Shown here piece after piece: positions 6,695-23,358 of a DNA stretch of 64,000 bases. The notes under the pieces were generated by a model, which saw only the letters and a list, made by a program, of their open reading frames with translations, searched no databases and had not been told where the DNA came from. Every line of letters begins with the position of its first letter. The first letter of the stretch is position 1. Made by a program: the position numbers and the translations under genes. This DNA comes from a virus. The stretch is taken from positions 186,001-250,000 of IMG/VR virus record IMGVR_UViG_3300031857_000005; one strand, 5' to 3'.

Positions 6695-7118
6695 AACTTA
6701 TCAAATCAGATTTAACACAGATTCAAAAACTGATGATGAAAGATGGAGATTAATTGAAAACGGTAACGAGACATTAGTTTCAGACATCATTATTGATGGA
6801 CACACTCAAACAACTAAAGATTGGTTACCGGAAATTAATGATTATAAATGGCATGTTAGTTGTGTTGGTTATTGTAGTATTGAGAATAATGTTGCATATA
6901 TAAAAACCATAAAAGAAGAATCTGTATTAATTAGACATATTTTAAAAACAGTTAGTTATAGATTTTTAGGAACCTTAACTACAGTTGTTGTTGCATATTC
7001 GTTAGGGGCAACAATTGAGGTTTCGGCATTGCTTGGTGTTGGTGAACTTATTATGAAACCATTTATATATTTTGGTCACGAAAGATTGTGGTATAAATAT
7101 ATAAGAATTAAAAAATAA
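6678..7118 (+). CDS. Membrane protein with unknown N-domain fused to DUF2061
   Basis: A 146-residue protein in two parts. Residues 1-75 form a soluble domain with RWRLIENGNE, TTKDWLPE and KWHVSCVGYC, which I do not recognise functionally. Residues 80-146 match the DUF2061 pattern: RHILKTVSYRFLGTLTTVVV, a short second hydrophobic helix, then YFGHERLWYK. Two transmembrane helices are likely (about 92-110 and 113-130). DUF2061 has no firm function. Position after sulfotransferase, APS kinase and nucleotidyltransferase genes, with start overlap, suggests a link to sulfate supply or activation; that is inference. The domain fusion is the odd point. Confidence 0.65.
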   Translation: MQIQSKTYQIRFNTDSKTDDERWRLIENGNETLVSDIIIDGHTQTTKDWLPEINDYKWHVSCVGYCSIENNVAYIKTIKEESVLIRHILKTVSYRFLGTLTTVVVAYSLGATIEVSALLGVGELIMKPFIYFGHERLWYKYIRIKK

Positions 7119-7131
7119 CTTTCTTTCATTG

Positions 7132-7139
7132 TATTTATA
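7132..7139 (+). promoter_or_regulatory. TATTTATA late-promoter-like element
   Basis: An exact TATTTATA lies 7 bases before the ATG at 7147, preceded by TTG. The same octamer stands upstream of at least ten other genes here, mostly structural ones. It is the reverse complement of the T4 late promoter core TATAAATA. The promoter role is inferred. Confidence 0.5.
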
Positions 7140-7146
7140 AGATACA

Positions 7147-7641
7147 ATGGAGCAATCAATTACTATACAAAGTATTAATTATGACGGTGAACTTGCTAAT
7201 ATCTTATTTAAACCAGATATTAGCGAAACCGTATATAATTTAGGTGATCAGTTTTTACCTTTTGTGTTTAATTCAAACACAATTAACCCTAATTTAGAAG
7301 TATTTGGGACATATACTATATTAATTTTATTTAATAAATGCCCATATTTTTTAAATGTCCCAAGACTTACTCCTACACCGACACCTACAAATACGCCAAC
7401 TAGAACACCAACACCTACACCAACACCTACGATTACACCTACACCTACGTTCGATCCTTGTAAGGTACCAACACCAACACCAACGGTTACTACAACGCCT
7501 ACGATTACACCTACAAATACACCAACTCCAAGTGTGACTTGTACAAATCCTTGTGGTTGTCCTGAACCAAGTAAAACACCAAAACCAAGTAAAACACCAA
7601 AACCGACACCTACTTGTACAAGTCCTTGTGGTTGCCCATAA
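7147..7641 (+). CDS. Pro-Thr-rich surface protein, 164 aa
   Basis: Residues 1-73 form a small folded domain ([20 protein letters not shown] onward, with [20 protein letters not shown]). Residues 75-135 are almost entirely Pro-Thr repeats ([20 protein letters not shown]). The C-terminus has two copies of a Cys motif, CTNPCGCP and CTSPCGCP, separated by [13 protein letters not shown]. No signal peptide is visible, so export is not expected and a virion location is more likely. The mucin-like composition makes it a candidate substrate for O-glycosylation by the enzymes encoded on either side. It has its own TATTTATA element. Function otherwise unknown. Confidence 0.6.
7366..7537 (+). repeat. Low-complexity Pro-Thr coding repeat
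   Basis: Runs of acacct, acaccaac and related hexamers encode (Pro-Thr)n. Shorter tracts of the same kind occur in the next gene near 7918-7970 and 8193-8219, where they link folded domains. The mixture of synonymous codons shows this is selected protein sequence rather than a simple microsatellite. Confidence 0.8.
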
Positions 7642-7672
7642 ACAATTTAATTTTTGATTAAATGTTTTATTG

Positions 7673-7680
7673 TATTTATA
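7673..7680 (+). promoter_or_regulatory. TATTTATA late-promoter-like element
   Basis: An exact TATTTATA preceded by TTG, 14 bases before the ATG at 7695, in the 53-base gap between two surface-protein genes. The spacing resembles that of the copies at 32653 and 45107. Confidence 0.5.
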
Positions 7681-7694
7681 TAATGTAATTTAAA

Positions 7695-9632
7695 ATGATA
7701 CATCAAATTTCAATAACAGGAGTAACAGGAACTCCACCATATTCAATATCGGTATGTGATTCAACATACACATATTGTTATTTGGTTACAGGTTCAACAA
7801 CAATACCACCAACATTTACTTTTGATGTTCCATCACCTTTAGATGGAGTTAATAATTTAATTGTAAAAATAACTGATTCTACAGGATGCGAATACTTTGA
7901 ACCTTATAGTTGTCCTCCTACACCGACACCAACACCTACTCTAACACCGACACCAACACCTACCCCAACCGATTTGTGTTATTGTTTAATGGCAGTTAAT
8001 TCATCCATGATGGATGGTTCGTTTGATTATATAGATTGTGATGGATTATCACAATTAAATATTCATGTCCCAAGTGGAATAACATATTATACTTGTGGAT
8101 CTAACCCGACAAACATAATTAATTTATCAATCGGAATAGGTGATTTATGTTCTTTATCCAGTTGTAATCCACCTTTACCTTCATTATCGGCAACACCAAC
8201 TCCTACTCCCACACCTTCGTCATTACCTTTTGCGTTTATTTCAGTTTGGTCGGCATCAACTACAATTGAACTTCCGTATTCACCAACTGGAACTTATTCA
8301 GGAATAATAGATTGGGGTGATGGTAATACATCTGTTAACTCATATGCAAATAGAACTCATACATATTCGATAACAGGTGATTATACTGTAACAATTACAG
8401 GTACAATTGAGGGTTGGGATTTTAATAATTATGCGACATCTTATAAAAACAATATAAAAGAAATATTAAGGTGGGGTCCACTAAAAGGAGAATCAGGTTC
8501 AAACAATGGCATGTTCTATGGTTGTCAAAATTTAATTATAACAGGTGTAACAGATACTATTAATTTAATTGGAATAACAAATTTGAGTAGTATGTTTTTT
8601 GGTTGTACTAGTTTAACTACCGTAAATAATATGGATAGTTGGGATGTATCATCTGTTAATAATATGTCGGGTATGTTTACATTGACATCTAATTTCAATC
8701 AACCAATAGGAAGTTGGGATGTTTCAAATGTTACAAATATGGCATCTATGTTCTCGTTATCCACAAACTTTAACCAAAACATCGGAAGTTGGGATGTTTC
8801 AAACGTTACCAATATGTTGGCTATGTTTTTAGCCGCGGCAAATTTCAATCAACCAATAGGAGGATGGGATGTTTCAAATGTTATCAATATGTCAGCTATG
8901 TTCGCAGGTTCTCAAAATTTCAATCAACCAGTAGGAAGTTGGGATGTTTCAAATGTTACCAATATGTCGTCTATGTTTGGTAATGCAACAAACTTCAATC
9001 AGACAATTGGGGGTTGGGATGTGTCAAATGTTACCAATATGGGTAATATGTTTGGTAATGCAACAAACTTTAACCAAAACATCGGAAGTTGGGATGTTTC
9101 AAATGTTACCGATATGAATGGTATGTTTTTATCGGCAATAAACTTTAACCAAAACATCGGAAGTTGGGATGTTTCAAATGTTACCGTTATGAATGGTATG
9201 TTTAATAATGCTACAAGTTTTAACAATGGAGGTTCTCCAAGTATAAATTTATGGAATGTTTCAGGTGTGACAAATATGTCATTTACTTTTTATACCGCAA
9301 CAAATTTCAATCAACCAATAGGAGGATGGGACGTATCTAATGTAACAAATATGGAAAATATGTTATCATTGGCAACAGTTTTTGATCAACCAATCGGAGG
9401 ATGGGATGTTTCATCAGTAACTAATATGAGTTTTATGTTAAATGGTACGTCATTATCAACACCTAATTATGATTTACTACTCAATGGATGGGCATCATTA
9501 GGAGGTTCATTACAACCCTCAGTTAATTTTAATGCCGGTACTTCTGTATATACGATTGCAACGGCTGGTGTGAGTAGAAATTATTTGACAGGAACCAAGT
9601 TATGGAATATAACTGACGGGGGAGGAATTTAA
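7695..9632 (+). CDS. Modular surface protein: PT linkers, PKD domain and BspA-like repeats
   Basis: A 645-residue modular protein. Residues 1-74 are a small beta domain ending in Cys-rich CEYFEPYSCPP. A PTPTP linker follows (about 75-97), then a second Cys-containing domain (98-165) and another PT linker. A PKD domain covers about 185-242 (IDWGDGN, HTYSITGDYTVTITG). From about 312 to 592 there are eleven 25-residue repeats with cores such as GSWDVSNVTNM and xMF, the BspA/DUF285 surface-protein repeat. There is no signal peptide or anchor, as expected for a phage-encoded virion adhesin rather than a bacterial surface protein. It probably mediates host or matrix binding. The Pro-Thr linkers and Ser/Asn-rich repeats are possible glycosylation targets for neighbouring enzymes. 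Confidence 0.75.
   Translation: MIHQISITGVTGTPPYSISVCDSTYTYCYLVTGSTTIPPTFTFDVPSPLDGVNNLIVKITDSTGCEYFEPYSCPPTPTPTPTLTPTPTPTPTDLCYCLMAVNSSMMDGSFDYIDCDGLSQLNIHVPSGITYYTCGSNPTNIINLSIGIGDLCSLSSCNPPLPSLSATPTPTPTPSSLPFAFISVWSASTTIELPYSPTGTYSGIIDWGDGNTSVNSYANRTHTYSITGDYTVTITGTIEGWDFNNYATSYKNNIKEILRWGPLKGESGSNNGMFYGCQNLIITGVTDTINLIGITNLSSMFFGCTSLTTVNNMDSWDVSSVNNMSGMFTLTSNFNQPIGSWDVSNVTNMASMFSLSTNFNQNIGSWDVSNVTNMLAMFLAAANFNQPIGGWDVSNVINMSAMFAGSQNFNQPVGSWDVSNVTNMSSMFGNATNFNQTIGGWDVSNVTNMGNMFGNATNFNQNIGSWDVSNVTDMNGMFLSAINFNQNIGSWDVSNVTVMNGMFNNATSFNNGGSPSINLWNVSGVTNMSFTFYTATNFNQPIGGWDVSNVTNMENMLSLATVFDQPIGGWDVSSVTNMSFMLNGTSLSTPNYDLLLNGWASLGGSLQPSVNFNAGTSVYTIATAGVSRNYLTGTKLWNITDGGGI
8632..9470 (+). repeat. 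Eleven ~75-bp BspA/DUF285 repeats
   Basis: Tandem coding units of 75 bases share near-identical stretches such as agttgggatgtttcaaatgt. The most similar units lie between about 8690 and 9200, while the unit at about 9240 (LWNVSGVTNM) is diverged and carries a 3-residue insertion. The high DNA identity suggests recent unit duplication or ongoing recombination. Confidence 0.8.
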
Positions 9633-9679
9633 AAACATTTATTGAGTTTTATTTTTATTTTTTTATTATTAAAATAAAA

Positions 9680-10927
9680 ATGAAAATTTTCATCCAAATC
9701 GCTTCTTATAGAGATCCCCAACTTATACCAACAATTAAAGATTGTATTGATAAATCAAAAAAACCTGAAAATTTAAGATTTGGTATTTGTAGACAATTTC
9801 ATCCTGAAGATGGTTTTGATAATTTAACAGAATATGAGAATGATGATAGATTCAGAATTTTAAATATTCCATATCAAGAATCAACAGGCGTGTGTTGGGC
9901 AAGAAACCAAGTACAACAATTATATAAAGGAGAAAAATACACTCTACAGTTAGATTCTCATATGAGATTTGAACAAGATTGGGATGATACTTTAATTAAA
10001 ATGATTAAAGGATTACAAAAGAATGGCTATAAAAAACCATTATTAACTGGTTATGTCTCATCATTTGATCCTGAAAATGATCCTCAAGGTAGGGTTACCG
10101 ATCCGTGGAGAATGACATTTGATAGATTTACACCTGAAGGTGTTGTATTCTTTTTACCTGAAGTAATTCCTAATTGGAGGGAATTTAGTGAACCAATACC
10201 TTCAAGATTTTACTCCGCACATTTTGCATTTACATTAGGGGAGTTTTCTAAAGAAGTTCAACATGATCCTGAATACTATTTTCACGGTGAAGAAATTTCA
10301 ATTGCAGTAAGAGCATACACTCATGGATATGATTTATTTCATCCACATAGAGTTGTTATTTGGCACGAATACACAAGGAAGGGTAGAACTAAACAATGGG
10401 ACGATGATAAAGAGTGGTATAAAAAAAACGAATCTTGTCATAAAAAGAATAGACAAATACTTGGTATTGATGGAGAATCTTATGAAGGGGATTTAGGTAA
10501 ATATGGTTTTGGTACCGAAAGGACAATTAGAGATTATGAAAAATATTCAGGTATCCTATTTTCTAAAAGAGCAATACAACAATATACAATAGATAAAAAT
10601 TATCCTCCTAATTCATACGATTATGAAACTGAAGAACAATGGTTAGATAGTTTTACAACAATATTCAAACATTGTATTGATATATCATTTGATGGAGTTC
10701 CTGAAAATGATTACGATTTTTGGGTTGTTGCATTTCATAATGAAAAAGATGAAACTTTATTTAGACAAGATGCCGACTCAAACGAAATAAATAGAATGAT
10801 GCAAGATCCTGACAGATACTGTAAAATATGGAGAGAATTCCACACAAAAGAAAAACCTAAGTATTGGGTTGTGTGGCCGTATAGTAAATCAAAAGGATGG
10901 TGTCCAAGATTAACAGGTAATTTATAA
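9680..10927 (+). CDS. GT60-like polypeptide GlcNAc-transferase
   Basis: A 415-residue protein matching the GlcNAc-transferase (Skp1-type, GT60) family. It begins FIQIASYRDPQLIPTIKDCI, continues with LRFGICRQF and ARNQVQQLYKGEKYTLQLDS, and has the metal-binding DSHMRFEQDWD motif. Later come a HFAFTLGEF segment and HGEEISIAVRAYTHGYDLF. Eukaryotic members add alpha-GlcNAc to hydroxyproline of Skp1 or to Thr of Pro/Thr-rich trypanosome mucins. Here it follows two genes for Pro-Thr-rich proteins, so those are plausible acceptors (inference). Its start ATG follows a T-rich then A-rich intergenic stretch, and the gene ends 5 bases before the next. Confidence 0.8.
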   Translation: MKIFIQIASYRDPQLIPTIKDCIDKSKKPENLRFGICRQFHPEDGFDNLTEYENDDRFRILNIPYQESTGVCWARNQVQQLYKGEKYTLQLDSHMRFEQDWDDTLIKMIKGLQKNGYKKPLLTGYVSSFDPENDPQGRVTDPWRMTFDRFTPEGVVFFLPEVIPNWREFSEPIPSRFYSAHFAFTLGEFSKEVQHDPEYYFHGEEISIAVRAYTHGYDLFHPHRVVIWHEYTRKGRTKQWDDDKEWYKKNESCHKKNRQILGIDGESYEGDLGKYGFGTERTIRDYEKYSGILFSKRAIQQYTIDKNYPPNSYDYETEEQWLDSFTTIFKHCIDISFDGVPENDYDFWVVAFHNEKDETLFRQDADSNEINRMMQDPDRYCKIWREFHTKEKPKYWVVWPYSKSKGWCPRLTGNL

Positions 10928-10932
10928 TTTAT

Positions 10933-11643
10933 ATGGTAACATTTAATGATGTAAAAATAGCTGATGTTGGGTATTATATAAATTTGGATAGTAGGGTTGA
11001 CAGAAAAGATAACCTTGAGTCACAGTTTAATAAATTTAACATAAAGGGGGTTAATAGATTTTCGGCATTTTCAAGTTACCCAAGTAATCCCTCAAATTGT
11101 AAAAAAAGTCATTATCAATTATTTGAATTGTTTTTACAATCAAATTACAATACTATGTTAGTATTAGAAGATGATTGTAAGTTTTTAGATTTTTTAAAGG
11201 ATGAGTCAACCGAAATTTTTGATAAAATTTTAAATACTGATTGGGATTTATTTTGGTTAGGATGTAGAAATAGAAAACCACCAAAAAATTATATTAATAA
11301 TTGTTATTTTACCTCATCAACTTCCGGAGCTCAATCTTACATTATAACAAAAAGATTTGTTGAGTATCTATTATCTACTTTCCCTATTGAACCTAACGAT
11401 AATTTAAGGAACACATCAATTGATGAACTACTGTGTTTATCAATATATGATATTGATGTGGTTAATAACCCAAATAAATATAATTTTTATAATTTAGATC
11501 AACCTTTAGATAATCTACAAACTAAATTTAAATCATTGTGTTATGAAAAGGCACTTACAACACAATATCTTTCATATAGTGATTTATGGGGTACTACTAC
11601 CGATTTAGAATATTATATGATATCATCACACCCAAAACAATAA
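10933..11643 (+). CDS. GT25-family glycosyltransferase
   Basis: A 236-residue protein resembling GT25 enzymes (LPS galactosyltransferases and the collagen galactosyltransferase relatives). It shows the YYINLDSRVDRKDNLESQF start, CKKSHYQLFELFL, and LVLEDDCKFLDF with the EDD metal-binding site. TSGAQSYIITKRFVEYLL and SIDELLCLSIY follow. These enzymes usually transfer galactose or glucose from a UDP-sugar. No membrane segment is seen. It lies between the GT60-like enzyme and a methyltransferase, with 4-5 bases between genes, so all belong to one transcription unit that decorates a shared glycan, most likely on virion proteins. Confidence 0.78.
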   Translation: MVTFNDVKIADVGYYINLDSRVDRKDNLESQFNKFNIKGVNRFSAFSSYPSNPSNCKKSHYQLFELFLQSNYNTMLVLEDDCKFLDFLKDESTEIFDKILNTDWDLFWLGCRNRKPPKNYINNCYFTSSTSGAQSYIITKRFVEYLLSTFPIEPNDNLRNTSIDELLCLSIYDIDVVNNPNKYNFYNLDQPLDNLQTKFKSLCYEKALTTQYLSYSDLWGTTTDLEYYMISSHPKQ

Positions 11644-12241: not shown

Positions 12242-13920
12242 TTACATTAGTAACTGGTTTATGGGATATTGGTAGAGGTGATTTACAGGAAGGTTGGTCA
12301 CGATCATATCAACACTATTTAGGTAAGTTTGAAGAACTACTAAAAGTAGATAGTAACCTTATTATTTTTGGTGATAAAGAGTTACAAGATTTTGTATCTC
12401 AAAGAAGACAGGTTGAAAACACTCAATTTATTTTGAGGGATTTGAATTGGTTTAAAAATAACGAATATTTCCAATTAATACAAACTATACGAACAAATCC
12501 TGATTGGTTTAACCAAGTTGGGTGGTTAAAGGACTCAACTCAATCTAAATTAGAAATGTATAACCCTTTGGTTATGTCTAAAATGTTTTTACTTAATGAT
12601 GCAAAAATTTTAGATAAATTTAATTCAGATAAACTATTTTGGGTTGATGCCGGTTTAAGTAATACCGTACATATGGGTTATTTTACGCATGATAAAGTTA
12701 TGGATAAAATAGATAAATTATCTGACAAATTTTTATTTATTTGTTTTCCATATAACGCAGAAACTGAAGTTCATGGATTCAAGTATGAAGAAATGAAACG
12801 ATTAACAAACTCAACACCTGATATTGTTGCTCGCGGAGGATTCTTTGGTGGGGATAAGGATTTAATATCACAAATGAATAGTTTGTATTATGGGATATTA
12901 ATTGACACCCTTAAACGAGGTTTTATGGGTACTGAAGAAAGTTTATTTACAATATTAACATACCAATACCCTAACATAATTGATTACTGTGAAATAGAAT
13001 CTAATGGATTAGTTTATAAATTTTTTGAGGATGTTAAAAACAATTTAGTTGTAATAAAAAACTTTGACTCAAAACCAACAATCGTTAAAACTAATTTAGA
13101 AATTAACTCAAATGGGATTGGTTTATATATTATAACATTTAATTCACCAAATCAATTTGAGACATTAATCCAATCAATGTTGAACTATGATACTGATTTT
13201 ATCACAAGAACCAAAAAGTTTTTACTTGATAATTCAACAGATACATCAACAACCCCAAGGTATTTGGAACTTTGTGAACAATATGGTTTTACTCACATAA
13301 AAAAAGATAATATTGGTATAACTGGTGGAAGACAATTTATTGCGGAACATTTTAATGAACAAGAAGATTTAGGTTATTATTTCTTCTTTGAGGACGATAT
13401 GTTATTTCACTCAGGTAAAACCGATGTGTGTAAAAATGGTTTTGGTAGGTATGTTAAAAAACTATTTACCAAATCTTTAAACATACTAAAAAGAGAATCT
13501 TTTGATTTCTTAAAATTAAATTTTACAGAATTTTATGGTTCTAATGATAAACAATGGTCTTGGTATAATGTTCCCCAAGATTTTAGACAATCCCATTGGC
13601 AGAACAATCCAAGGTTACCACAACAAGGGTTGGATCCAAATTCACCAAACACAGAATTCAAATATATTAAATCATTACAGGGGTTACCATATGCGAGTGG
13701 AGAAATCTATTTGTGTAACTGGCCGATTCTAATGTCAAAAGAAGGTAATTATAAGTGTTATTTAAAAACAAAATTTGATCATCCATTTGAACAAACTTTA
13801 ATGTCCCAATGTTTCCAAGAAACCATTAAGGGTAATATCAATCCGGGTTTATTATTAATAACCCCAACTGAACACAATCGTTTCGATCATTATGAATCCT
13901 CATTAAGAAAAGAATGTTAA
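12238..13920 (+). CDS. Two-domain glycosyltransferase (HtrL/YibB-like plus GT2-like)
   Basis: A 560-residue fusion. Residues 1-260 match the HtrL/YibB/WlaTC pattern: MITLVTGLWDIGRGD, YNPLVMSKMFLLNDA, KLFWVDAGLSN, ARGGFFGG and GTEESLFTIL. Residues 295-560 look like a second transferase of GT2 type (GIGLYIITFNSPNQFETLI, then GITGGRQFIAEHF and YYFFFEDDMLFH with an acidic EDD site). Two catalytic domains in one chain could build a disaccharide or keep two steps together. It overlaps the methyltransferase gene and is the last gene of the glycosylation cluster. Both domain calls rest on motif recognition. Confidence 0.72.
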   Translation: MITLVTGLWDIGRGDLQEGWSRSYQHYLGKFEELLKVDSNLIIFGDKELQDFVSQRRQVENTQFILRDLNWFKNNEYFQLIQTIRTNPDWFNQVGWLKDSTQSKLEMYNPLVMSKMFLLNDAKILDKFNSDKLFWVDAGLSNTVHMGYFTHDKVMDKIDKLSDKFLFICFPYNAETEVHGFKYEEMKRLTNSTPDIVARGGFFGGDKDLISQMNSLYYGILIDTLKRGFMGTEESLFTILTYQYPNIIDYCEIESNGLVYKFFEDVKNNLVVIKNFDSKPTIVKTNLEINSNGIGLYIITFNSPNQFETLIQSMLNYDTDFITRTKKFLLDNSTDTSTTPRYLELCEQYGFTHIKKDNIGITGGRQFIAEHFNEQEDLGYYFFFEDDMLFHSGKTDVCKNGFGRYVKKLFTKSLNILKRESFDFLKLNFTEFYGSNDKQWSWYNVPQDFRQSHWQNNPRLPQQGLDPNSPNTEFKYIKSLQGLPYASGEIYLCNWPILMSKEGNYKCYLKTKFDHPFEQTLMSQCFQETIKGNINPGLLLITPTEHNRFDHYESSLRKEC

Positions 13921-13935
13921 AATAGATTATTGATA

Positions 13936-13943
13936 TATTTATA
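13936..13943 (+). promoter_or_regulatory. TATTTATA late-promoter-like element
   Basis: An exact TATTTATA within TATATTTATAG, 13 bases before the ATG at 13957. It separates the glycosyltransferase cluster from the next small structural-type gene. Confidence 0.5.
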
Positions 13944-13956
13944 GTAAAAACTATAG

Positions 13957-14373
13957 ATGGAATTCTACATTAAAAAAAATGCAACTCTTCCTGTTTTAAA
14001 GATACAAGTTGTAAAAGACGGAAGAAGTGATTATAATAATTTTATGGAGATGATTGAGGAATCTGCCATATTTTTTTCTATGGTAAATGTAGAAACTGGT
14101 ATCCCTAAAATAACAACAAGACCCGCAGGATTTGTGGAAAAAATTCAAATAGAACCAAACGCAACTCCCGAATATTATATCTACTATAGATTTACCTCAA
14201 AAGACACAAGTAAAGTTGGTAGATATGAAGCACAATTCTTATTGAGAAATAATGACGGAACTTTAATTTTACCAATAAGAGAAAGATTATTTATAAATGT
14301 CCAAGAGAGTTATATTGCGGATGATTTATTATATCAAAATCCTTATATAGTAGATTTCCCTTGTTGTGGGTAA
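13957..14373 (+). CDS. Hypothetical virion-type protein, 138 aa
   Basis: A 138-residue mostly beta protein beginning MEFYIKKNATLPVLKIQVVK and ending with a PYIVDFPCCG tail. The pattern resembles an immunoglobulin-like or phage baseplate-type beta sandwich (YYIYYRFTSKDTSKVGRYEA, then RERLFINVQESYI), but I cannot assign a family. It has its own TATTTATA element, as do most structural genes here. The next gene starts from a separate sigma70-like promoter. Likely a virion protein; low certainty. Confidence 0.5.
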   Translation: MEFYIKKNATLPVLKIQVVKDGRSDYNNFMEMIEESAIFFSMVNVETGIPKITTRPAGFVEKIQIEPNATPEYYIYYRFTSKDTSKVGRYEAQFLLRNNDGTLILPIRERLFINVQESYIADDLLYQNPYIVDFPCCG

Positions 14374-14402
14374 TTGACATTAATGTAATAATAAGATATA
14401 TT
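14374..14402 (+). promoter_or_regulatory. Sigma70-like promoter for DNA polymerase
   Basis: TTGACA (14374-14379), a 17-base spacer and TATATT (14397-14402), 63 bases before the polymerase ATG. The -35 box is a perfect consensus and the -10 box matches in five of six positions. A sigma70-type host promoter would suit early or middle expression. The leader downstream has a possible hairpin at 14409-14429. Confidence 0.65.
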
Positions 14403-14465
14403 TAAGAGTGTAAGGTAAATGTCGTTACATACGGCAGTTAATAAACCAAACTTAAATATATACAA

Positions 14466-17399
14466 ATGATATCAGAAGAAGAAATTAAATCCTTCTTAGA
14501 AGGTGCCGACCCAGAACAATTCATAGTGTCGGTAGAGTATGATTACGCTGCTAATTGCGTTTATAAAATCAAAGAAACACCAGGAAAAGGAAAATCAATA
14601 CATAAAGAATCTTTTAGTTCTTTTGGTTGGGTAGGTGACTTGCGTGGTATGAATTTTTACCAAGGTTCTAAAGAATTACAAAAAGAGGCAATGACTAAAT
14701 ACGGTATTATCATTGAGAAACTAAGGACTGATGGTAATGAAAGATTAGAAAATGGACTAACATTCTTAGTTAAATCAATCAAAGGATATAGAGAACTAAT
14801 TCAATTTTTTAGAGACGGTGGTATAGATCCTTGGGGTGAAAAAACCAAAGATAAAATAATGATTCTACCTCCTGTAGAACAATACCTCATCTCAAAAGAA
14901 AAACGACTATTTAAAGGATTTGAAGAATACAATGATATTACAAGACTTGTATTTGACTTGGAGACGACTGCTTTAGAACCTAAAGACGGTCGTATTTTTA
15001 TGATTGGAATTAAGACAAATAAGGGACACTTAAAAGTAATTGAGTGTAAAGATGCTGACGAAGAAAGACGAGGTATCGTTGAATTTTTCAGAATCATAGA
15101 TGAGATAAAACCTTCAATCATTGGGGGTTACAACTCAGCAAACTTTGACTGGCATTGGATTTTTGAGAGATGTAAAGCTCTTAACATTGACTTAAAGAAA
15201 ATCCCAACCTCATTAAACCACTCAAAACCTATTGCACAAAAAGAGTCAATGTTAAAATTGGCAAATGAAGTTGAGCGATATAACCAAGTACAAATGTGGG
15301 GATACAATGTTATTGATATCATCCATTCAGTTCGTAGAGCTCAAGCAATCAACTCAAGTATTAAAGAGGCGGGACTTAAATATATTACCAAATATATTGA
15401 TGCCGAAGCGAAAGATCGTATTTACATCGATCACACAAAAATTGGTCCGATGTATGCAAACAAGGACGAATATTGGTTAAATACCGAAAACGGTAAATAC
15501 AAGAAGGTTGGTGTTGATCAAAAAATTGATGAGGTATGTTTTAGACGAGGTGACATTTATCTTAAAACCACAGGTGATAACATTGTTGAGAGATATCTTG
15601 ACGATGACTTGGAGGAAACCTTAATTGTTGACGATGAATTCAATCAAGGATCATTCCTACTTGCATCACTACTCCCAACAACATATGAACGAGTATCAAC
15701 AATGGGTACCGCAACATTATGGAAAATGTTAATGTTAGCTTGGTCATATAAACATAAATTGGCGATACCTCAAAAACAAGAAAAAGGAAACTTTGTTGGT
15801 GGTTTATCAAGACTATTAAAAGTTGGGTATTCAAAAGATGTACTGAAACTTGACTACTCATCACTATACCCATCAATTCAGTTGGTTCACGATGTGTTTC
15901 CTGAATGTGATATAACAGGAGCAATGAAAGGATTATTAACTTACTTTAGAAATACTCGTATCAAGTATAAAAATTTGGCATCAGAATTTAAAAGTAAGGA
16001 TAAAAAACTTTCCTTATCTTACGATAGAAAACAATTACCAATTAAAATCTTTATCAACTCATTGTTTGGTGGTTTAAGTGCCCCACAAGTATTCCATTGG
16101 GGTGATATGAACAAGGGGGAACAGATTACCTGTACGGGTAGACAATATCTTAGACAGATGTTAAAATTCTTTAGTAAAAGAGGATATAGTCCTTTGGTGT
16201 GTGATACTGATGGTATGAACTTCTCATTGCCTGAAGGTGGTGTAGAAGATAGAGTATACATTGGTAAAGGATTAAATTGGTTGGTTAAGGAAGGTAAAGA
16301 ATATCGTGGTTATGATGCGGATGTTGCCGAGTTTAATGATTTATTTATGAGAGGTGCGATGGGTCTTGATTGTGACGGTACTTGGGATTCTTGTATTAAC
16401 TTAGCTCGTAAAAATTACGCAACTATGGAACAAAACGGTAAGATTAAACTTACAGGTAATAGTATCAAGTCCAAAAAGATGCCAAAGTATATTGAGAAGT
16501 TCTTGGATAAAGGGATTAAACAATTACTTAAAGGTGAGGGTAAAGAATTTATTGAGTGGTATTACGAATACATTCAAAAGATATTTGATCAAAAGATTCC
16601 TTTGGCGGAAATTGCGTCTAAAGCAAAAGTTAAATTGAGTGTTGATGATTACATTAAACGCAGTAAACAAACTACCAAGGCAGGTTCGTTGATGTCAAGA
16701 CAGGCACATATGGAACTTATTATAAGAGATGGGATTCAGTCAAATCTTGGTGATATGATTTTCTATGTGAATAACGGAACAAAGGCTTCACACGGAGATG
16801 TTCAGAAAGTTAATAAACCAAAGAAAGGGTGGACAGAAGAACAAATAAGTTTGTTCTTTTCGGATAGTTCAAAAAATAATTTAGATTATAAACAGAAAGA
16901 AAAATTTTTAATTAACAACGGTTGGGAAACTTCTTGGTCTGATGATAATTGGGTAAGAAGTGATTCACCGTACAAAGAAGCAAATACTGGTATACCGACA
17001 GATGTTGCATATAAAGTCGCTAGTTCAGATTCTGTTATACAACTTAATTGTTATCGTATTGAACCTTCGGATTTGGAAAACAATCCTGAGATGTTAGGTG
17101 AGTACAATATCCAAAGAGCGATTGCAACATTCAATAAACGAGTGGAACCTTTATTAATTGTTTTTGACGATGAGGTAAGAGATTCACTATTGGTTAAAAA
17201 TCCTGAAGATAGAAATTTCTATACAACAGAACAATGTAAATTGATTAATGGAAAACCATTCAGTCCTGAAGATCAAGATGATGTATATGAAAATCTATTA
17301 AAGATGGAACAAGGTGAGGTTGAATTTTGGAACCGTGTTGGTATCAACCCTGATTATATTTATGAGTTAGCAGATGAGGGATGGGAGGAGTTAATTTAA
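14466..17399 (+). CDS. Family B DNA polymerase
   Basis: A 977-residue replicative polymerase of the T4 gp43 type, somewhat longer than gp43 (898). The 3'-5' exonuclease motifs are present: Exo I DLE at 164-166, Exo II NSANFDW with D228, and Exo III Y377-x3-D381. Polymerase motif A is DYSSLYPSI from D463, motif B RKQLPIKIFINSLFGG from R521, and motif C CDTDG with D580 and D582. All catalytic acidic residues are therefore present, so it should both polymerise and proofread. A thumb-like region follows (TGNSIKSKKMPKYIEKF). It has a sigma70-like promoter. Its stop codon overlaps the end of the convergent gene by 9 bases. Confidence 0.95.
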   Translation: MISEEEIKSFLEGADPEQFIVSVEYDYAANCVYKIKETPGKGKSIHKESFSSFGWVGDLRGMNFYQGSKELQKEAMTKYGIIIEKLRTDGNERLENGLTFLVKSIKGYRELIQFFRDGGIDPWGEKTKDKIMILPPVEQYLISKEKRLFKGFEEYNDITRLVFDLETTALEPKDGRIFMIGIKTNKGHLKVIECKDADEERRGIVEFFRIIDEIKPSIIGGYNSANFDWHWIFERCKALNIDLKKIPTSLNHSKPIAQKESMLKLANEVERYNQVQMWGYNVIDIIHSVRRAQAINSSIKEAGLKYITKYIDAEAKDRIYIDHTKIGPMYANKDEYWLNTENGKYKKVGVDQKIDEVCFRRGDIYLKTTGDNIVERYLDDDLEETLIVDDEFNQGSFLLASLLPTTYERVSTMGTATLWKMLMLAWSYKHKLAIPQKQEKGNFVGGLSRLLKVGYSKDVLKLDYSSLYPSIQLVHDVFPECDITGAMKGLLTYFRNTRIKYKNLASEFKSKDKKLSLSYDRKQLPIKIFINSLFGGLSAPQVFHWGDMNKGEQITCTGRQYLRQMLKFFSKRGYSPLVCDTDGMNFSLPEGGVEDRVYIGKGLNWLVKEGKEYRGYDADVAEFNDLFMRGAMGLDCDGTWDSCINLARKNYATMEQNGKIKLTGNSIKSKKMPKYIEKFLDKGIKQLLKGEGKEFIEWYYEYIQKIFDQKIPLAEIASKAKVKLSVDDYIKRSKQTTKAGSLMSRQAHMELIIRDGIQSNLGDMIFYVNNGTKASHGDVQKVNKPKKGWTEEQISLFFSDSSKNNLDYKQKEKFLINNGWETSWSDDNWVRSDSPYKEANTGIPTDVAYKVASSDSVIQLNCYRIEPSDLENNPEMLGEYNIQRAIATFNKRVEPLLIVFDDEVRDSLLVKNPEDRNFYTTEQCKLINGKPFSPEDQDDVYENLLKMEQGEVEFWNRVGINPDYIYELADEGWEELI

Positions 17400-17750
17400 C
17401 TTCAACCCATCACTGCTGATAATGTACCAATTTCCCTCAACAAAACTTAAATGAACACAAGCACCTTTTTCAAGTAAAAGTTCATCCCATTCTTCATCAA
17501 TTAAACCAATATCAGGTTTAATTAAAACGGTAGTCAAAGATTTTATGGTTACCGTTTTATTTTTTTCTGAACTTAAAGTAACTTCTGAACTTTCAATATC
17601 TTTAACAATAACTAAAATTTCTTCATCAACTTGATGTGTCTCTGTTGTTACAATTTTGTCCTCAACAATTTTAGCTGGTGTAGGCGGAATGTGTGTTCTG
17701 TATCTAACCACATTTTTTCTCGGTGAAATATTTTCAATTTTAAAACTCAT
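17391..17750 (-). CDS. Hypothetical protein, 119 aa
   Basis: A 119-residue protein, beta-rich and acidic, starting MSFKIENISPRKNVVRYRTH. No catalytic motif or membrane segment is visible. The end (GNWYIISSDGLKLN) and repeated Glu/Lys/Val strands suggest a small structural beta domain. Its start overlaps the end of the upstream 376-residue gene by 4 bases (ATGA), so the two are translationally coupled and probably act together. It converges with the polymerase gene. Function unknown; a virion (neck) role is inferred from its partner. Confidence 0.55.
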   Translation of the reverse strand: MSFKIENISPRKNVVRYRTHIPPTPAKIVEDKIVTTETHQVDEEILVIVKDIESSEVTLSSEKNKTVTIKSLTTVLIKPDIGLIDEEWDELLLEKGACVHLSFVEGNWYIISSDGLKLN

Positions 17751-18877
17751 ATAACATAAATTTGTCTAGGCATTGCCCTGAACTTTAAAGATTTGTTAAG
17801 ATTCTCCGCAAGTAAAGCCTCTCGTTCTAAAACTTTATCAGGTCTTAATCTTGTTAACTTACCTTCAGCCCCTGTTAATTCTTCTATTAGTTTAGTTTTT
17901 TCGTCTTTACCTTCAGTTGCTAATGACTGATAATCCATTGTAAGTTCTGAATCCGGTGTTTTGATATTACCACTAAATTTACCTCTAACTTTTGATAGAG
18001 TTTCTTTACAACTTGCGATAAACCAATTTCTAACCCAAACTTGTGCGGGATGATTTAAATCAACCCAAGAAAGTTTATCAATCGGAACATCAGATGGTAA
18101 TTTAATAATATCAGGATTATCTTTTAAACATTTGTCTCTACCTCCTTCAGTAGTATCATAGTACCAATACCATACTTTTCCTTTAGTCATTGTTCCATTA
18201 CCAAAATCAAACTTACCACCAGGAGTGTTCATTAAATGTATAGCTTTTTTACCACCTGGTAATGCGGTAATTCTATATGTTAAATCACCAGCAATAATTC
18301 TTCTTTGAATGTTTATTTCTTGCATTCTCAATAACATATCAAAAGCCGGCATCATAAAATATGAACCTGCCATATTACCACCCATTTGTGCGAGACCTCC
18401 ACCTCCACCAAGACCTCCACCATATCCTAATGAACCAAATGACCATGGATCAAACATTGTGTTGTTTAGTGTTGCAGGAGTAAACCATAGTAGTTCATTA
18501 ATTTCTCTTCCTTCAGGTATTTCGTATATTTGTTGGTTTTTGACTAATTGGATGTAATCCTTTTTAAGTTCCCACTCTCCACCCGCTTGTAACCCAACGA
18601 TTTTAGAATATGCGTATGTGTATCTTGTTTCGTAATCTAAACTTTTTGTTACAAAGGCTCTTGATAACGATTGAGTTTCAAGATTCAAATTCCATAAACT
18701 TGTCCATTGAGATTCAATCAACCAATCATTAACTTTTTGAGAATACTCATCTATTGAGAATTCAAGAAGGGTATCCATTTGTTCGTCCTCTAATTCAACA
18801 CTCCTTAACGGTGCTCCGAGTATGTGTCTAATTTTAGTGTATAATTCACTTCTTTGTGGTTCTGGTATAATTCCCAT
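17747..18877 (-). CDS. Structural-type protein, possible neck/head-completion protein
   Basis: A 376-residue protein. The helical N-terminus (LYTKIRHILGAPLRSVELED, then LEFSIDEYSQKVNDWLI) resembles the helical start of phage head-tail connector or neck proteins. The middle has a Gly-rich loop (GYGGGLGGGGGLAQMGGNMA) and aromatic strands (KVWYWYYDTTEGG). A helical DLNHPAQVWVRNWFIASCKETL segment follows, and the chain ends AMPRQIYVI. It has an upstream TATTTATA element on the minus strand, typical of structural genes here. A gp13/gp14-like neck role is a guess from architecture and the absence of another neck candidate; confidence in protein-coding status is high. Confidence 0.55.
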   Translation of the reverse strand: MGIIPEPQRSELYTKIRHILGAPLRSVELEDEQMDTLLEFSIDEYSQKVNDWLIESQWTSLWNLNLETQSLSRAFVTKSLDYETRYTYAYSKIVGLQAGGEWELKKDYIQLVKNQQIYEIPEGREINELLWFTPATLNNTMFDPWSFGSLGYGGGLGGGGGLAQMGGNMAGSYFMMPAFDMLLRMQEINIQRRIIAGDLTYRITALPGGKKAIHLMNTPGGKFDFGNGTMTKGKVWYWYYDTTEGGRDKCLKDNPDIIKLPSDVPIDKLSWVDLNHPAQVWVRNWFIASCKETLSKVRGKFSGNIKTPDSELTMDYQSLATEGKDEKTKLIEELTGAEGKLTRLRPDKVLEREALLAENLNKSLKFRAMPRQIYVI

Positions 18878-18900: not shown

Positions 18901-19992
18901 TTATTTCTTCATTCTTAATTCGTATAACTCATTGACGAATTCCCAATTAACACAATTCCAAAAGTTTTTAATGTACTGATCCCTCTTGTTTCTGTATCTC
19001 AAATAATAAGCATGTTCCCAAACATCAAGTCCAAGAAGTGGATAACCACCACCCTCAACAACATTCATTAATGGATTGTCTTGATTTGGGGTTGACATAA
19101 TTTTTAATCTACCTGTTTTAGTTAATACTAACCAAGCCCACCCTGAACCAAATCTATCTAATGCGGTTTTATTAAATTCTTCTTTAAATTTGTTAAATGA
19201 ACCGTATTGTTTTTTTATTTTCTCAAAAACAATACCTTTAGGTGTTTGTTTTGTTGGGGATAACATTTTCCAAAATAATGCATGGTTGAAAGCTCCTCCA
19301 GCATTGTTTCTAACTTTAGTATCAAATTTACTAATGGATTTAACAATGTCCTCAAGTTCCATATCACCTTTTCTACTTGATAAAGCGTCGTTTAATTTTT
19401 TTACATATCCTTTGTAGTGTTTGTTATAATGAATATCCATTGTCTCAGGATCTACAAATTTTTTAATTGCTGAATATGAATAAGGTAATTTCTCAATACC
19501 TATTTTTTTCATTTCAGTTAAAAACTGTTTTTGGATGTTTTCTTTTTCTTTAAGGACTATCTGTTCTGATATGATATCTAATTTATTGGATATTGATTTA
19601 AACCCCTCAAATATTGTTTTTTCATAATTTGGATAGTCTTTCTCAAACATTTTAACAATTTGACCCGCAAACGCATTTGCTTCATCTTCATTTTTCCCAC
19701 CAATGTCCGGACCTTTATCTCTATCTAAAACTCCGTGTTGATATTCGTGAACCCATTCGTGAGCAAGAGTTCTCATAATATCTCTATTTAATCTATTTTT
19801 TGCGAGTATCTTTAATATATGTTTGTTAGTCCTACTACCAGTACTCATTTTACCATATCTTTCACCCGTAAAAACTATTTCTATATCATCAACCAACGGC
19901 AATTTTTTACTTAAGAATTTTATAAAATCCTCAAATAATTTGTAATCTTTTTTTGGGATATCCGATTTAAGATATTTTATTGAAACTTTCAT
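18901..19992 (-). CDS. Zinc metallopeptidase-like domain fused to Mn/Fe superoxide dismutase
   Basis: A 363-residue fusion. Residues 1-120 carry LAHEWVHEYQHG (HExxH at 78-82) followed by EDEANAFAGQIV, a HExxH plus ExxANxFA layout reminiscent of M78/ImmA-IrrE-like metallopeptidases. After a helical linker (about 125-165), residues 170-361 are a complete Fe/Mn superoxide dismutase. Its metal ligands are H188, H237, D323 and H327. The NNAGG-x2-NH and STPNQDNPLM segments resemble the Mn type. The enzyme would convert superoxide to peroxide; the peptidase target is unknown. I chose the ATG at 19992 (MKVSIKYLKS) over a TTG six bases upstream. It lies in a minus-strand block with helicase and neck-type genes. 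Confidence 0.85.
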   Translation of the reverse strand: MKVSIKYLKSDIPKKDYKLFEDFIKFLSKKLPLVDDIEIVFTGERYGKMSTGSRTNKHILKILAKNRLNRDIMRTLAHEWVHEYQHGVLDRDKGPDIGGKNEDEANAFAGQIVKMFEKDYPNYEKTIFEGFKSISNKLDIISEQIVLKEKENIQKQFLTEMKKIGIEKLPYSYSAIKKFVDPETMDIHYNKHYKGYVKKLNDALSSRKGDMELEDIVKSISKFDTKVRNNAGGAFNHALFWKMLSPTKQTPKGIVFEKIKKQYGSFNKFKEEFNKTALDRFGSGWAWLVLTKTGRLKIMSTPNQDNPLMNVVEGGGYPLLGLDVWEHAYYLRYRNKRDQYIKNFWNCVNWEFVNELYELRMKK

Positions 19993-20020: not shown

Positions 20021-21784
20021 TTATCTTCTCTTGTTAATTGAATTGAGTATTTCCTCTACAACATCTCCACCATTTTCAAGTAAGTCATCACCCATCACGG
20101 TATTTATGATTTGTTTTTTTCTAGTAAGAATATCATATATTGCGCCCTCAATTGAGTTATCAAATAATGGGTAATAAACAAGAACATTATTTTTTTGTCC
20201 GTAACGATACGCTCTATCCTCAGCCTGTGCGTGTTCCGCAGGGACAAATGATAAGTCATTCATTATTACCACTTCTGCCGATGTTAATGTTAAACCAACA
20301 CCTGCCGCTTTAAGGTTACCTACAAATACTTTAATTTTTTCATTATCTTGAAACTGATCTACGGCATATTGTCTTTGAGGTTTAGTACAACTACCATCCA
20401 AGTAAACAGACTGTTTCCCAAAATGATTATGTATCATTTGTAATGTATCCGTAAAATTTGTGAATATGATAACCTTTTTACCTTGTTCAATTATGTTCTC
20501 AACAAATTCAATTGTGTGTTTGATTTTTTCGTTTGCAATAATTTTTCTAACTTTCATCAATTTACTAAACTGAATAGTCAAAGATGATGATTCGTCAGAT
20601 TTGTTTTCATACCAATCATAATATTCTCCCATCATTTCTTCGTAGTCTTTAGAAACTAATCTTAGATATATTGGTGAAATAATTTTATCTGGTAAATCAA
20701 GGACATCTTCTTTCAATCGTCTTAACATCTGTTTTGAAGTCCTGTCTCTTAATTCCTCAAGATTTGATGCTCCTTGTACATTCCATACTTTTCTTTTCCC
20801 TGCCATGAATTGATATCCCTGACAGTATCGGATAGCATAAGCCATCCAATTCTGTGCTACGGGACTTTCGATGATACTCAAAAGATTATAGTAATTCATG
20901 GGACGAGATGTCATTGGTGTTCCTGTCAACAACCACACTCGTTTAATATCTTTAACGAATGAATTAATAATTTTAGTTCGTTGAGCTTGTGGATTTGATA
21001 TCATATGTGCCTCATCCAAAATAACCAAGTCAAAATTTGAATTATGTATGATTGAATTGTCTTTATTTTTTGTATCGTAGAAATTTTTAAGAATGTCGTA
21101 ATTAACAATCGTAAAGTCTTCTTCTGTAGAGAATTTTTTACCTTCACTAATATAAACACTACGATCAGTATAATTTTCAATCTCTCGTTGCCAATTTATT
21201 TTTAATGATGCGGGACATACAATTAAAATTCTTTTTGCACCTGTTTCTAAAGCGGCAATTATTGTGGAAGTTGTTTTACCAAGTCCCATATCATCCGCAA
21301 GAATAAATCTTTTAGAACCAACTAATTTCTCAATCGCTTCTTTTTGGTGGGTAAGTGGTGGTCTATGTTCGTATTTAGAATAATCAATATCAACTTTCTC
21401 TATTGTGTGGGTTTTAATTAATGCGGATTTAGGAACCCAAAATTCAGTTAAATCATCCTTCTCAAAAAATTTACCCCAAATATGATATGACTTTTCTTTT
21501 TCCACTAAAAGTTTCTCAACATAAACAGTTTCAGGAACTTCTAATAGATATTTTTCTTCAGCAAATTTCTTTGCGAAGTATGAATCCAAGTCAACCCATT
21601 TACGAGCAACTTTTGGTTTTACATCATGATAAGTATTTATATAATCTGATTGTGATCTAGTAGGAAAGAATTTTTTACTCTTTTCTTTTTTAGTTTTTAA
21701 AGATAAAATATAGTTATTCGCACCTGAATATACCTCAAGTACTTCTAATGCTTTTTGCTCTATCGTTTTCGTTAGAATATCCAA
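20021..21784 (-). CDS. SNF2-family DNA helicase/translocase
   Basis: A 587-residue SF2 helicase of the SNF2 type, similar in layout to SMARCAL1-like annealing helicases. Motifs in order are I (ADDMGLGKTTS), Ia (ILIVCPASLKINWQREI), II (LVILDEAHMI), III (WLLTGTPMTSRPMNYY), IV (VIIFTNFTDTLQMI), V (GVGLTLTSAEVVI) and VI (AEDRAYRYGQ). It likely remodels replication or recombination intermediates, as UvsW does in T4. The start is a TTG (21784), because no in-frame ATG occurs before motif I that would keep the N-terminal region. A sigma70-like promoter lies upstream on the minus strand. Confidence 0.88.
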   Translation of the reverse strand: MDILTKTIEQKALEVLEVYSGANNYILSLKTKKEKSKKFFPTRSQSDYINTYHDVKPKVARKWVDLDSYFAKKFAEEKYLLEVPETVYVEKLLVEKEKSYHIWGKFFEKDDLTEFWVPKSALIKTHTIEKVDIDYSKYEHRPPLTHQKEAIEKLVGSKRFILADDMGLGKTTSTIIAALETGAKRILIVCPASLKINWQREIENYTDRSVYISEGKKFSTEEDFTIVNYDILKNFYDTKNKDNSIIHNSNFDLVILDEAHMISNPQAQRTKIINSFVKDIKRVWLLTGTPMTSRPMNYYNLLSIIESPVAQNWMAYAIRYCQGYQFMAGKRKVWNVQGASNLEELRDRTSKQMLRRLKEDVLDLPDKIISPIYLRLVSKDYEEMMGEYYDWYENKSDESSSLTIQFSKLMKVRKIIANEKIKHTIEFVENIIEQGKKVIIFTNFTDTLQMIHNHFGKQSVYLDGSCTKPQRQYAVDQFQDNEKIKVFVGNLKAAGVGLTLTSAEVVIMNDLSFVPAEHAQAEDRAYRYGQKNNVLVYYPLFDNSIEGAIYDILTRKKQIINTVMGDDLLENGGDVVEEILNSINKRR

Positions 21785-21844: not shown

Positions 21845-22357
21845 ATGTCAAATAAAGTACCTATTACAAGACTGGGTAAGTTTTTCGGAGAAAATGATTT
21901 TAACCTTGATATCTCAATGGGAGAAGAATGGTTAGTCGGGGATATGAACTTTACTTGTGTTCTTTATCGTATTGATAGATATAAAACAAAAACTGATGAT
22001 GTTTATGGTGAGACTGTTGAGGACGGAATTAAATTCTTACCTCCTGTTGAGTTCAATGCGTTTGTACAAGTATCGGCACCTGAAAATAAAATGATGGGAA
22101 CTACAAGAATTGATCAGATGGAACCTGGTAATATTAGAGTGTCTGTTTATCAAAAAACATTAGATGATTTGGAAATTGATATAAATTTTGGTGATTATAT
22201 AGGTTACTATGAAAGTGAAACTTTGGTTAGATATTATACGGTTAATAACGATGGTCGTGTAGTTTCTGATAATAAACATACATACGGTGGGTATAAACCT
22301 TTTTATCGTACAATATCGGCATCTCCTGTTGGACCTAATGAATTTAGAGGATTATGA
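21845..22357 (+). CDS. Hypothetical virion protein, 170 aa
   Basis: A 170-residue beta-rich protein starting MSNKVPITRLGKFFGENDFN. It has several strands rich in aromatic residues (FTCVLYRIDRYKTK, GDYIGYYESETLVRYYTVN) and ends PVGPNEFRGL. No enzyme motif is visible. It opens the plus-strand cluster that leads to the tail sheath and overlaps the next gene by 4 bases. A head-completion or tail-completion role would fit T4 gene order, where neck genes precede sheath and tube, but I do not recognise the family. Confidence 0.55.
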   Translation: MSNKVPITRLGKFFGENDFNLDISMGEEWLVGDMNFTCVLYRIDRYKTKTDDVYGETVEDGIKFLPPVEFNAFVQVSAPENKMMGTTRIDQMEPGNIRVSVYQKTLDDLEIDINFGDYIGYYESETLVRYYTVNNDGRVVSDNKHTYGGYKPFYRTISASPVGPNEFRGL

Positions 22358-23358
22358 GAAAAATGAAAATAATGTTGTCTGAGTCACAATATTTTAAAGT
22401 GATGAGGTTAGTGAATGAAGAAGAAGAAATTGATATCATTGATGAACCAACAAAATATACTTATTTGAGTGTGAATCCTTGGCAGAAAGGAACTACCAAA
22501 AAATATTTTTTTAATAAGGTAAGATCAGTACCTGATAAATCACCAATACCAGGAAAAATTAAATTGGTTGGTAACCGTGGGGAGTTTATTTTCAATAAAA
22601 GTGATTTAAGATTTAATGTTGAAAAAGAAACCATAAGTGTTGATCAATGGTTATTAGATAAAGATTTTAATTTGGGGGAAGGCGCTAATGAACCTCAAAA
22701 TATGGGAATTACTCCGAATAATATTAGAAAGGCATTGAGTTTGGCGTTTCCTAATAATTGGATGTCTGAGGATGATATATATAGTGCGGGTTTAAGAGGT
22801 GTTTACACTATTGGTGATAAAATTAATGATCAAACAGAAGATTGGTCTATTATGAATTATTTTGATACCAAGCCCGAAATTCATGATTTGATATTTTTAA
22901 GATATAAAGAACAAGACAGTAATGAAGATATTATTGATTGGATGATAAATTTATTTAAAAATGATGATGCATTCACACAACTTTTAGTTGATAGACAATG
23001 GCAGTCAATTGAAAATGGGTTAAAATTAGAGAGGGATTCCGTTAAATACCTTTTAACCAAACTTAAAAGTGCTTCTATTACTTTTTATCCTCACGGTTCT
23101 AAAATGGATAGATGGTACGGTATTGATGTAACAATTAACGGGATTAATTGTCAAGTTAAACCATTAACATCATATTTTGAAAAAGATGGAGTTTATACCG
23201 TTTATACTTACGGTATGAGAGATTATTCATCTAAAAAAATGGTAAATAAAATAATTTTTGCAAATAATAAAGAAATACTAATATTTGATAATAAAAATTA
23301 TTCTGTTAACTCAAGATCAAAAGCAACTTTTAATGAACAACCAAAAATAGTAAAATAA
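22354..23358 (+). CDS. Possible packaged nuclease (PD-(D/E)XK-like C-terminus), 334 aa
   Basis: A 334-residue protein of unknown family. The N-terminus (MKIMLSESQYFKVMRLVNEE) is an amphipathic helix ending in Val-Asn-Glu, like T4-type capsid-targeting peptides that end at [LIV]-x-E. The middle is helical. The C-terminal part has E(RD)SVKYLLTKLKSA followed by WYGIDVTINGINCQVKPL. That gives an Asp then a Gln-x-Lys spaced as in PD-(D/E)XK nucleases that carry Gln in place of Glu. I infer a possible nuclease packaged with the DNA, at low confidence. It overlaps the upstream gene by 4 bases and is 1 base from the next. Confidence 0.45.
   Translation: MRKMKIMLSESQYFKVMRLVNEEEEIDIIDEPTKYTYLSVNPWQKGTTKKYFFNKVRSVPDKSPIPGKIKLVGNRGEFIFNKSDLRFNVEKETISVDQWLLDKDFNLGEGANEPQNMGITPNNIRKALSLAFPNNWMSEDDIYSAGLRGVYTIGDKINDQTEDWSIMNYFDTKPEIHDLIFLRYKEQDSNEDIIDWMINLFKNDDAFTQLLVDRQWQSIENGLKLERDSVKYLLTKLKSASITFYPHGSKMDRWYGIDVTINGINCQVKPLTSYFEKDGVYTVYTYGMRDYSSKKMVNKIIFANNKEILIFDNKNYSVNSRSKATFNEQPKIVK

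Follow-up and report, generated by a model that had tools for sequence, protein, structure and literature searches.

Why should a phage carry, in one polypeptide, a metallopeptidase-like domain of the zincin kind and a superoxide dismutase (SOD), and what would such a protein do in an infection? The question is raised by a gene in a 64,000-nucleotide stretch of DNA (the window, G000:C1:186001-250000) from a phage record of 304,365 bases (304 kb). The gene is read on the minus strand from 19992 to 18901, stop codon included, as 363 amino acids with no interruption, and sits in a minus-strand block within a cluster of structural genes (Table 1). With a probability of about 0.7, we read its product as a precursor that is packaged in the phage head and cut during maturation, and that would deliver SOD and other cargo together with the DNA, as T4 does with its internal proteins.

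Table 1. Features of the fusion locus, in window coordinates; a slash within a motif marks a predicted cleavage point.
Feature	Position	Strand	Evidence
Small protein, 119 aa, last of the minus-strand group	17391..17750	-	ORF list, synteny
Head-tail connector-like protein	17747..18877	-	PHROG 211, E 1e-9; downstream of the fusion in all relatives with enough flank
Fusion gene, zincin + leader-like linker + Mn-type SOD	18901..19992	-	56 distinct relatives
SOD domain, residues 161-363	18904..19512	-	Ligands H188, H237, D323, H327; Q304 in STPNQDNPLM
Linker / leader-like propeptide, residues 130-160	19513..19605	-	Conserved L/I-x-E; helix 142-162
Predicted prohead-protease site 2, LTE/M, residues 158-160, directly before SOD	19513..19521	-	[LI]xE in 55/56
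Possible extra site LKE, residues 147-149	19546..19554	-	[LI]xE in 44/56
Predicted prohead-protease site 1, ISE/Q, residues 141-143	19564..19572	-	[LI]xE in 53/56
N-terminal zincin domain, residues 1-129	19606..19992	-	HEWVH 78-82, third ligand E102, zincin fold
HEWVH motif, residues 78-82	19747..19761	-	Sequence; H78, E79, H82 invariant
SNF2-type helicase	20021..21784	-	PHROG 62, E 3e-114; always upstream of the fusion (synteny)
Stand-alone cargo gene	22354..23358	+	Leader MRKMKIMLSESQYFKVMRLVNEEEE / MKIMLSESQYFKVMRLVNEE; weak, sub-threshold match to MjaI restriction endonuclease

Relatives of the fusion were collected by a scan of IMG/VR, which found 315. The best 80 of these 315 loci (66-100 % identity) were examined and nearly all of them kept the whole fusion; 56 distinct full fusions were aligned for the counts given below, which are not independent because the sequences are related. 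Residues H78, E79, H82 and E102 of the zincin and H188, H237, Q304, D323 and H327 of the SOD were invariant in 56/56. Replacement changes were few relative to silent ones in the zincin domain, the linker and the SOD, and dN/dS was about 0.02-0.11 for the SOD and 0.15-0.38 for the N-terminal domain, values obtained with silent sites near saturation. The preliminary description had placed both domains in one reading frame, named sequencing error as a possible source of a false fusion and proposed a search for other proteins with both domains. Its coordinates were correct, the search yielded the 56 distinct full fusions in viral loci, and an error of sequencing or assembly is excluded by these fusions and their conserved gene neighbourhood. 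One near-identical copy of the window gene (L005, 7986-8981) has a deletion of about 36 residues across the start of the SOD, with loss of the first metal-ligand region.

A single scan across bacterial and archaeal genomes turned up no cellular contig with the fusion, by which an origin as a host gene or prophage was ruled out; the nearest cellular SODs in that scan were Bacteroidota enzymes at about 50 % identity. A literature search, with preprints outside its coverage, returned no description of a zincin paired with an SOD or of an SOD in polyvalent proteins, and no paper on phage SOD in virions. UniProt holds a 501-aa relative (A0A6J5L953, 67 % identity over the SOD) that is already named superoxide dismutase.

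The C-terminal domain was matched by both Fe/Mn SOD families of Pfam (PF00081, E 1e-20, residues 167-245; PF02777, E 1e-41, residues 252-355) and has the three His and one Asp ligands, which bears out the complete SOD that had been described from these four residues. The Mn-type assignment made from STPNQDNPLM also held, as a sequence signature, with the invariant Q304 and GG at 232-233. The start of the domain, MKKIGIEKLPY, is invariant or nearly so and abuts the last linker site. A quick tree grouped all sampled fusion SODs in a single clade (support 0.48), whose sister was a phage SOD from contig L172; the same sequence (100 %) is present in L192, a phage contig of 222 kb. L172 was found in a Fluviicola MAG bin; it probably represents a phage that was binned wrongly, and it hints at the host group. 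MT839568 (H10), considered as a further phage SOD, was set aside because it looks like a bacterial contig.

What the fusion might do is suggested by the linker between its domains. The prohead protease of T4, gp21, cleaves at the motif L/I-X-E (PMC9026906), and only three columns of the 363-aa alignment carry [LI]xE in at least half of the 56 fusions, all of them in the linker. The middle residue of each of the three varies freely (about 2 bits of entropy), and the 3 fusions without site 1 read LLEQ, in which [LI]xE is displaced by one position. The SOD-proximal site was found in 108/111 fused and zincin-less forms, with V-x-E in two others. A structure model of the whole protein gave pLDDT below 50 for residues 130-162, and its two domains were not docked (pTM 0.55). 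From these positions we infer that the linker would be a leader that targets proteins to the capsid, as in the internal proteins of T4, and that would direct entry into the prohead, and that a gp21-type prohead protease would cut after E143, E160 and perhaps E149 in head maturation. Two products would result, a zincin of residues 1-143 and a mature Mn-SOD with M161 as its first residue. Both would be carried inside the head together with the DNA and be injected into the host, where the SOD would destroy superoxide early, within the first minutes and ahead of phage gene expression; the zincin may be cargo, an aid to processing or an enzyme directed at a host target. The proposal of head packaging and prohead proteolysis is made because of these linker sites together with the third modules and the leader family on many proteins that are described below.

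A plainer account would have the product act uncut, as a two-domain auxiliary enzyme in the host cytosol, where the SOD would be protective, the zincin would have a separate job and the L/I-x-E motifs would merely reflect the helical nature of the linker. L, I, K and E are frequent in the linker, an E/K/L-rich helix easily yields such motifs, and L/I-x-E is short enough to be present in 27 % of 25-aa windows of these proteins. What argues against the uncut enzyme, which we hold to be unlikely, is that exact columns with a free middle residue are conserved in the linker only.

The sequence beyond the SOD bears on the same choice. In many relatives the reading frame extends beyond the SOD and encodes a third module; these modules are of several unrelated kinds, and none was named by PHROGs or Pfam. 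A [LI]xE lies within 30 aa of the SOD end in all 74 of the 74 forms with a third module and in none (0/41) of those ending at the SOD; a site after the SOD that recurs exactly when a further module follows is not what an uncut cytosolic enzyme would lead one to expect. On the head-packaged precursor reading, the third modules would be extra cargo behind the SOD with the same kind of leader, released in the same manner. Stand-alone copies of third modules adjoin the fusion gene, each with its own N-terminal leader. At locus L020 the fused junction KKKNIITENQSDKIN (also KKKNIITENQSDKINERVRSTVEKFG) equals the leader of the stand-alone module, MKIIITENQSDKIN (also MKIIITENQSDKINHRIKSTVEKFG), and at L022 and L028 the junction between SOD and module is likewise the leader of a stand-alone copy. 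In the window, the C-terminal half of the product of the stand-alone cargo gene resembles the third module behind the SOD in L068 and L077.

Tandem arrays of at least three leader-bearing paralogous cargo genes were observed in L020 (9589-10959) and in L022 and L028 (around 7000-10970). They flank the fusion on one or both sides, as a site of gene duplication.

The zincin is dispensable to this arrangement in some phages. We found 11 distinct SOD proteins without it, and most of those with known flanks lie between the helicase and the connector gene. Most begin with a leader that ends in L/I-x-E before the SOD, as in L252 (MKNLVNKIEALKEEVTLVETKKTQKFFLSE/MKRIGIEKLPYSY; leader, site, SOD) and L265 (...VLFLNE/MKKIGIDKLPYSY). 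Because these proteins keep the leader and the SOD-proximal site, their sequences suggest that the linker belongs to the SOD as its propeptide and that a zincin was gained or lost ahead of it. Two cases count against packaging: L203 (4001-4645) encodes, at this locus, an SOD that lacks both zincin and leader (MEEFKAVRLPYGY), and the leader of the sister phage SOD (L192/L172) is only a divergent one. Judged by L203 and L192, phage SODs need not be packaged, and leaderless cytosolic use also occurs. Together with L203, the uncut cytosolic enzyme finds support in the stand-alone Fe/Mn SODs that jumbo phages encode without a zincin (PA5oct/MIJ3-type Pseudomonas phages and Vibrio phage 2.275.O), which differ from the SODs described here in length (about 180-190 aa) and share 27-28 % identity with them.

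Head-maturation genes of the kind that the head-packaged precursor would depend on are present in the same record: a gp21-type prohead protease (Peptidase_S77, PF03420, E 3e-23) at 135771-136499 and a Gp23-type capsid protein (PF07068, E 1e-74) at 138300-140177. The capsid protein itself has INE/A (INE, residues 58-60) where its propeptide ends and its mature-like part starts. As a control we used a fetched 15 kb of T4, in which IPII and IPIII start with MKTYQEFIAE/A and IPI has TITE/A near its start. By strict patterns, at least 26 proteins of the record have such leaders (for example MKKVIRLTESDLTRIVKRVINE, MKIIITENQ and IITEEEKSRILGMHK), against 0.06 on average with shuffled N-termini; the patterns were written after the sequences of this record had been viewed, so that the 26 describe a common signal and are not an independent test of it. 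After removal of their first 35 residues, no two of the 26 match each other. Over all proteins, the frequency of [LI]xE was 0.024-0.029 in the first 20 residues and 0.013 in the bodies, an approximately twofold difference. The leader proteins are likely to be a large set of head-packaged, injected proteins, to judge by these N-termini, and the same kind of leader on unrelated proteins is a further argument against the uncut cytosolic enzyme.

These proteins are small, unrelated and mostly clustered, for example at 13668-14653, 59979-73022 and 109452-111040 of the record, outside the window. The nearest relatives of the capsid protein were found in uncultured phage LR756508, Microcystis phage Mel-JY01 and Flavobacterium phage immuto (40-43 %); a search for a virion proteome found none. 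A tblastn search of a phage collection with one 23-aa leader gave no match, and hence no link to a phage whose virion content is known, which is weak evidence given so short a query.

The comparison with the internal proteins of T4 (IPI, IPII, IPIII and Alt) carries the packaging reading. Both systems have a leader ending in L/I-x-E that is common to otherwise unrelated proteins, and a gp21-type protease and a Gp23 capsid protein within the same genome; in T4, enzymes of foreign origin that bear the signal are packaged and delivered (PMC9026906). The systems differ in the position of the leader, and this difference counts against packaging: T4 targeting sequences are N-terminal, whereas the leader in the window's protein is internal, behind the zincin, and N-terminal only in the zincin-less relatives. 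They differ further in that several cargoes can be strung together here, and in that an SOD has not been described among the contents of T4 heads. The inner-body and ejection proteins of phiKZ and SPN3US are also numerous head proteins, with propeptides cut after x-x-E by a relative of gp21. Their motif is S/A-x-E or A-x-E, in contrast to the L/I-x-E found here, and no SOD polyprotein has been described for them (PMC9026906, PMC5694885).

Cleavage might also be the work of the protein's own zincin, not of the prohead protease, in an injected protein of the polyvalent type. For the zincin-bearing polyvalent proteins of phages and of plasmids and conjugative elements, processing has been ascribed to the zincin (PMC5512222). 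The invariance of the zincin active site in all 56 fusions fits such self-cleavage, as do zincins joined to other enzymes among the predicted proteins of uncultured phages. The likeness extends to the general plan, since the polyvalent proteins are multidomain, combine a zincin with interchangeable effector domains and are thought to enter the host early (PMC5512222), and the present protein has a zincin and effector-like modules in one polypeptide. It differs in that none of the domain families of that paper was matched here, no Pfam domain of the class among them, and the word superoxide is absent from the paper. We regard self-cleavage as improbable; the same sites persist in the zincin-less forms and in stand-alone leader proteins, and they match the gp21 motif.

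The zincin itself was assessed from motif and structure. No Pfam family reached the cut-off for the N-terminal domain. An AlphaFold (AF2) model of residues 1-143 (pLDDT 89, pTM 0.85) has a zincin fold, and the invariant residues supply the HExxH helix and the third acidic ligand, so that the domain is, on the model, a small zincin of the HExxH...E kind. Foldseek against solved structures gave no match below 0.001; the best were M61, YbeY and IrrE, the last with E 0.04. A structural aligner (VIA) gave Z up to 9.8 with YbeY, M1, M30 and Wss1 chains. Among predicted viral structures, those named IrrE-like or SprT-like matched at E 1e-4 to 1e-5, the IrrE-like ones at about 1e-5.

The preliminary description had called this domain M78/ImmA-IrrE-like and had supposed that an IrrE-type peptidase couples damage control to proteolysis. 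The zincin active site is borne out, and the assignment to M78 goes no further than a resemblance: HExxH, a third Glu in an ExxAN motif and the zincin fold are shared, whereas no family match passes the cut-off and no regulatory partner was seen. That the zincin cleaves a repressor for stress or defence regulation, with the SOD as linked damage control, is most improbable, for the HExxH...ExxAN pattern and the weak structural likeness to IrrE-like predicted proteins are set against the lack of a repressor partner nearby, SOD loci without a zincin and stand-alone zincins not linked to SOD.

If the head-packaged precursor reading is true, phages bring a ready-made antioxidant enzyme into the host along with the DNA, and this would hint that superoxide is of consequence within minutes of the start of infection. 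The odds lean slightly towards a broader statement, that widespread uncultured large phages load modular enzymes through such leaders, as polyproteins of zincin, SOD, nuclease-like and other modules that are assembled at one recombining locus, cut by the prohead protease and co-injected; the T4 internal-protein system would then have a polyprotein version, with a virion-delivered antioxidant enzyme. A short leader would then predict injected effectors, counter-defence candidates included, among the proteins of large uncultured phages. Fusions, separate genes and swaps also form a natural series at this locus, in which the evolution of cargo polyproteins in phages can be read directly.

Zincins of this kind are also found in other phages as stand-alone genes of 139-149 aa, away from any SOD. 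In L101 (6001-6966) the zincin is joined to a different C-terminal part with a VAGNTRL motif reminiscent of ParB-type domains; in L116 a part related to this C-terminal part is a separate downstream gene. In L112 the gene downstream of a stand-alone zincin gene, a few bases away, has a leader-like start (MKLHEEISRIKSILYED); this arrangement offers a plausible view of how such fusions come about.
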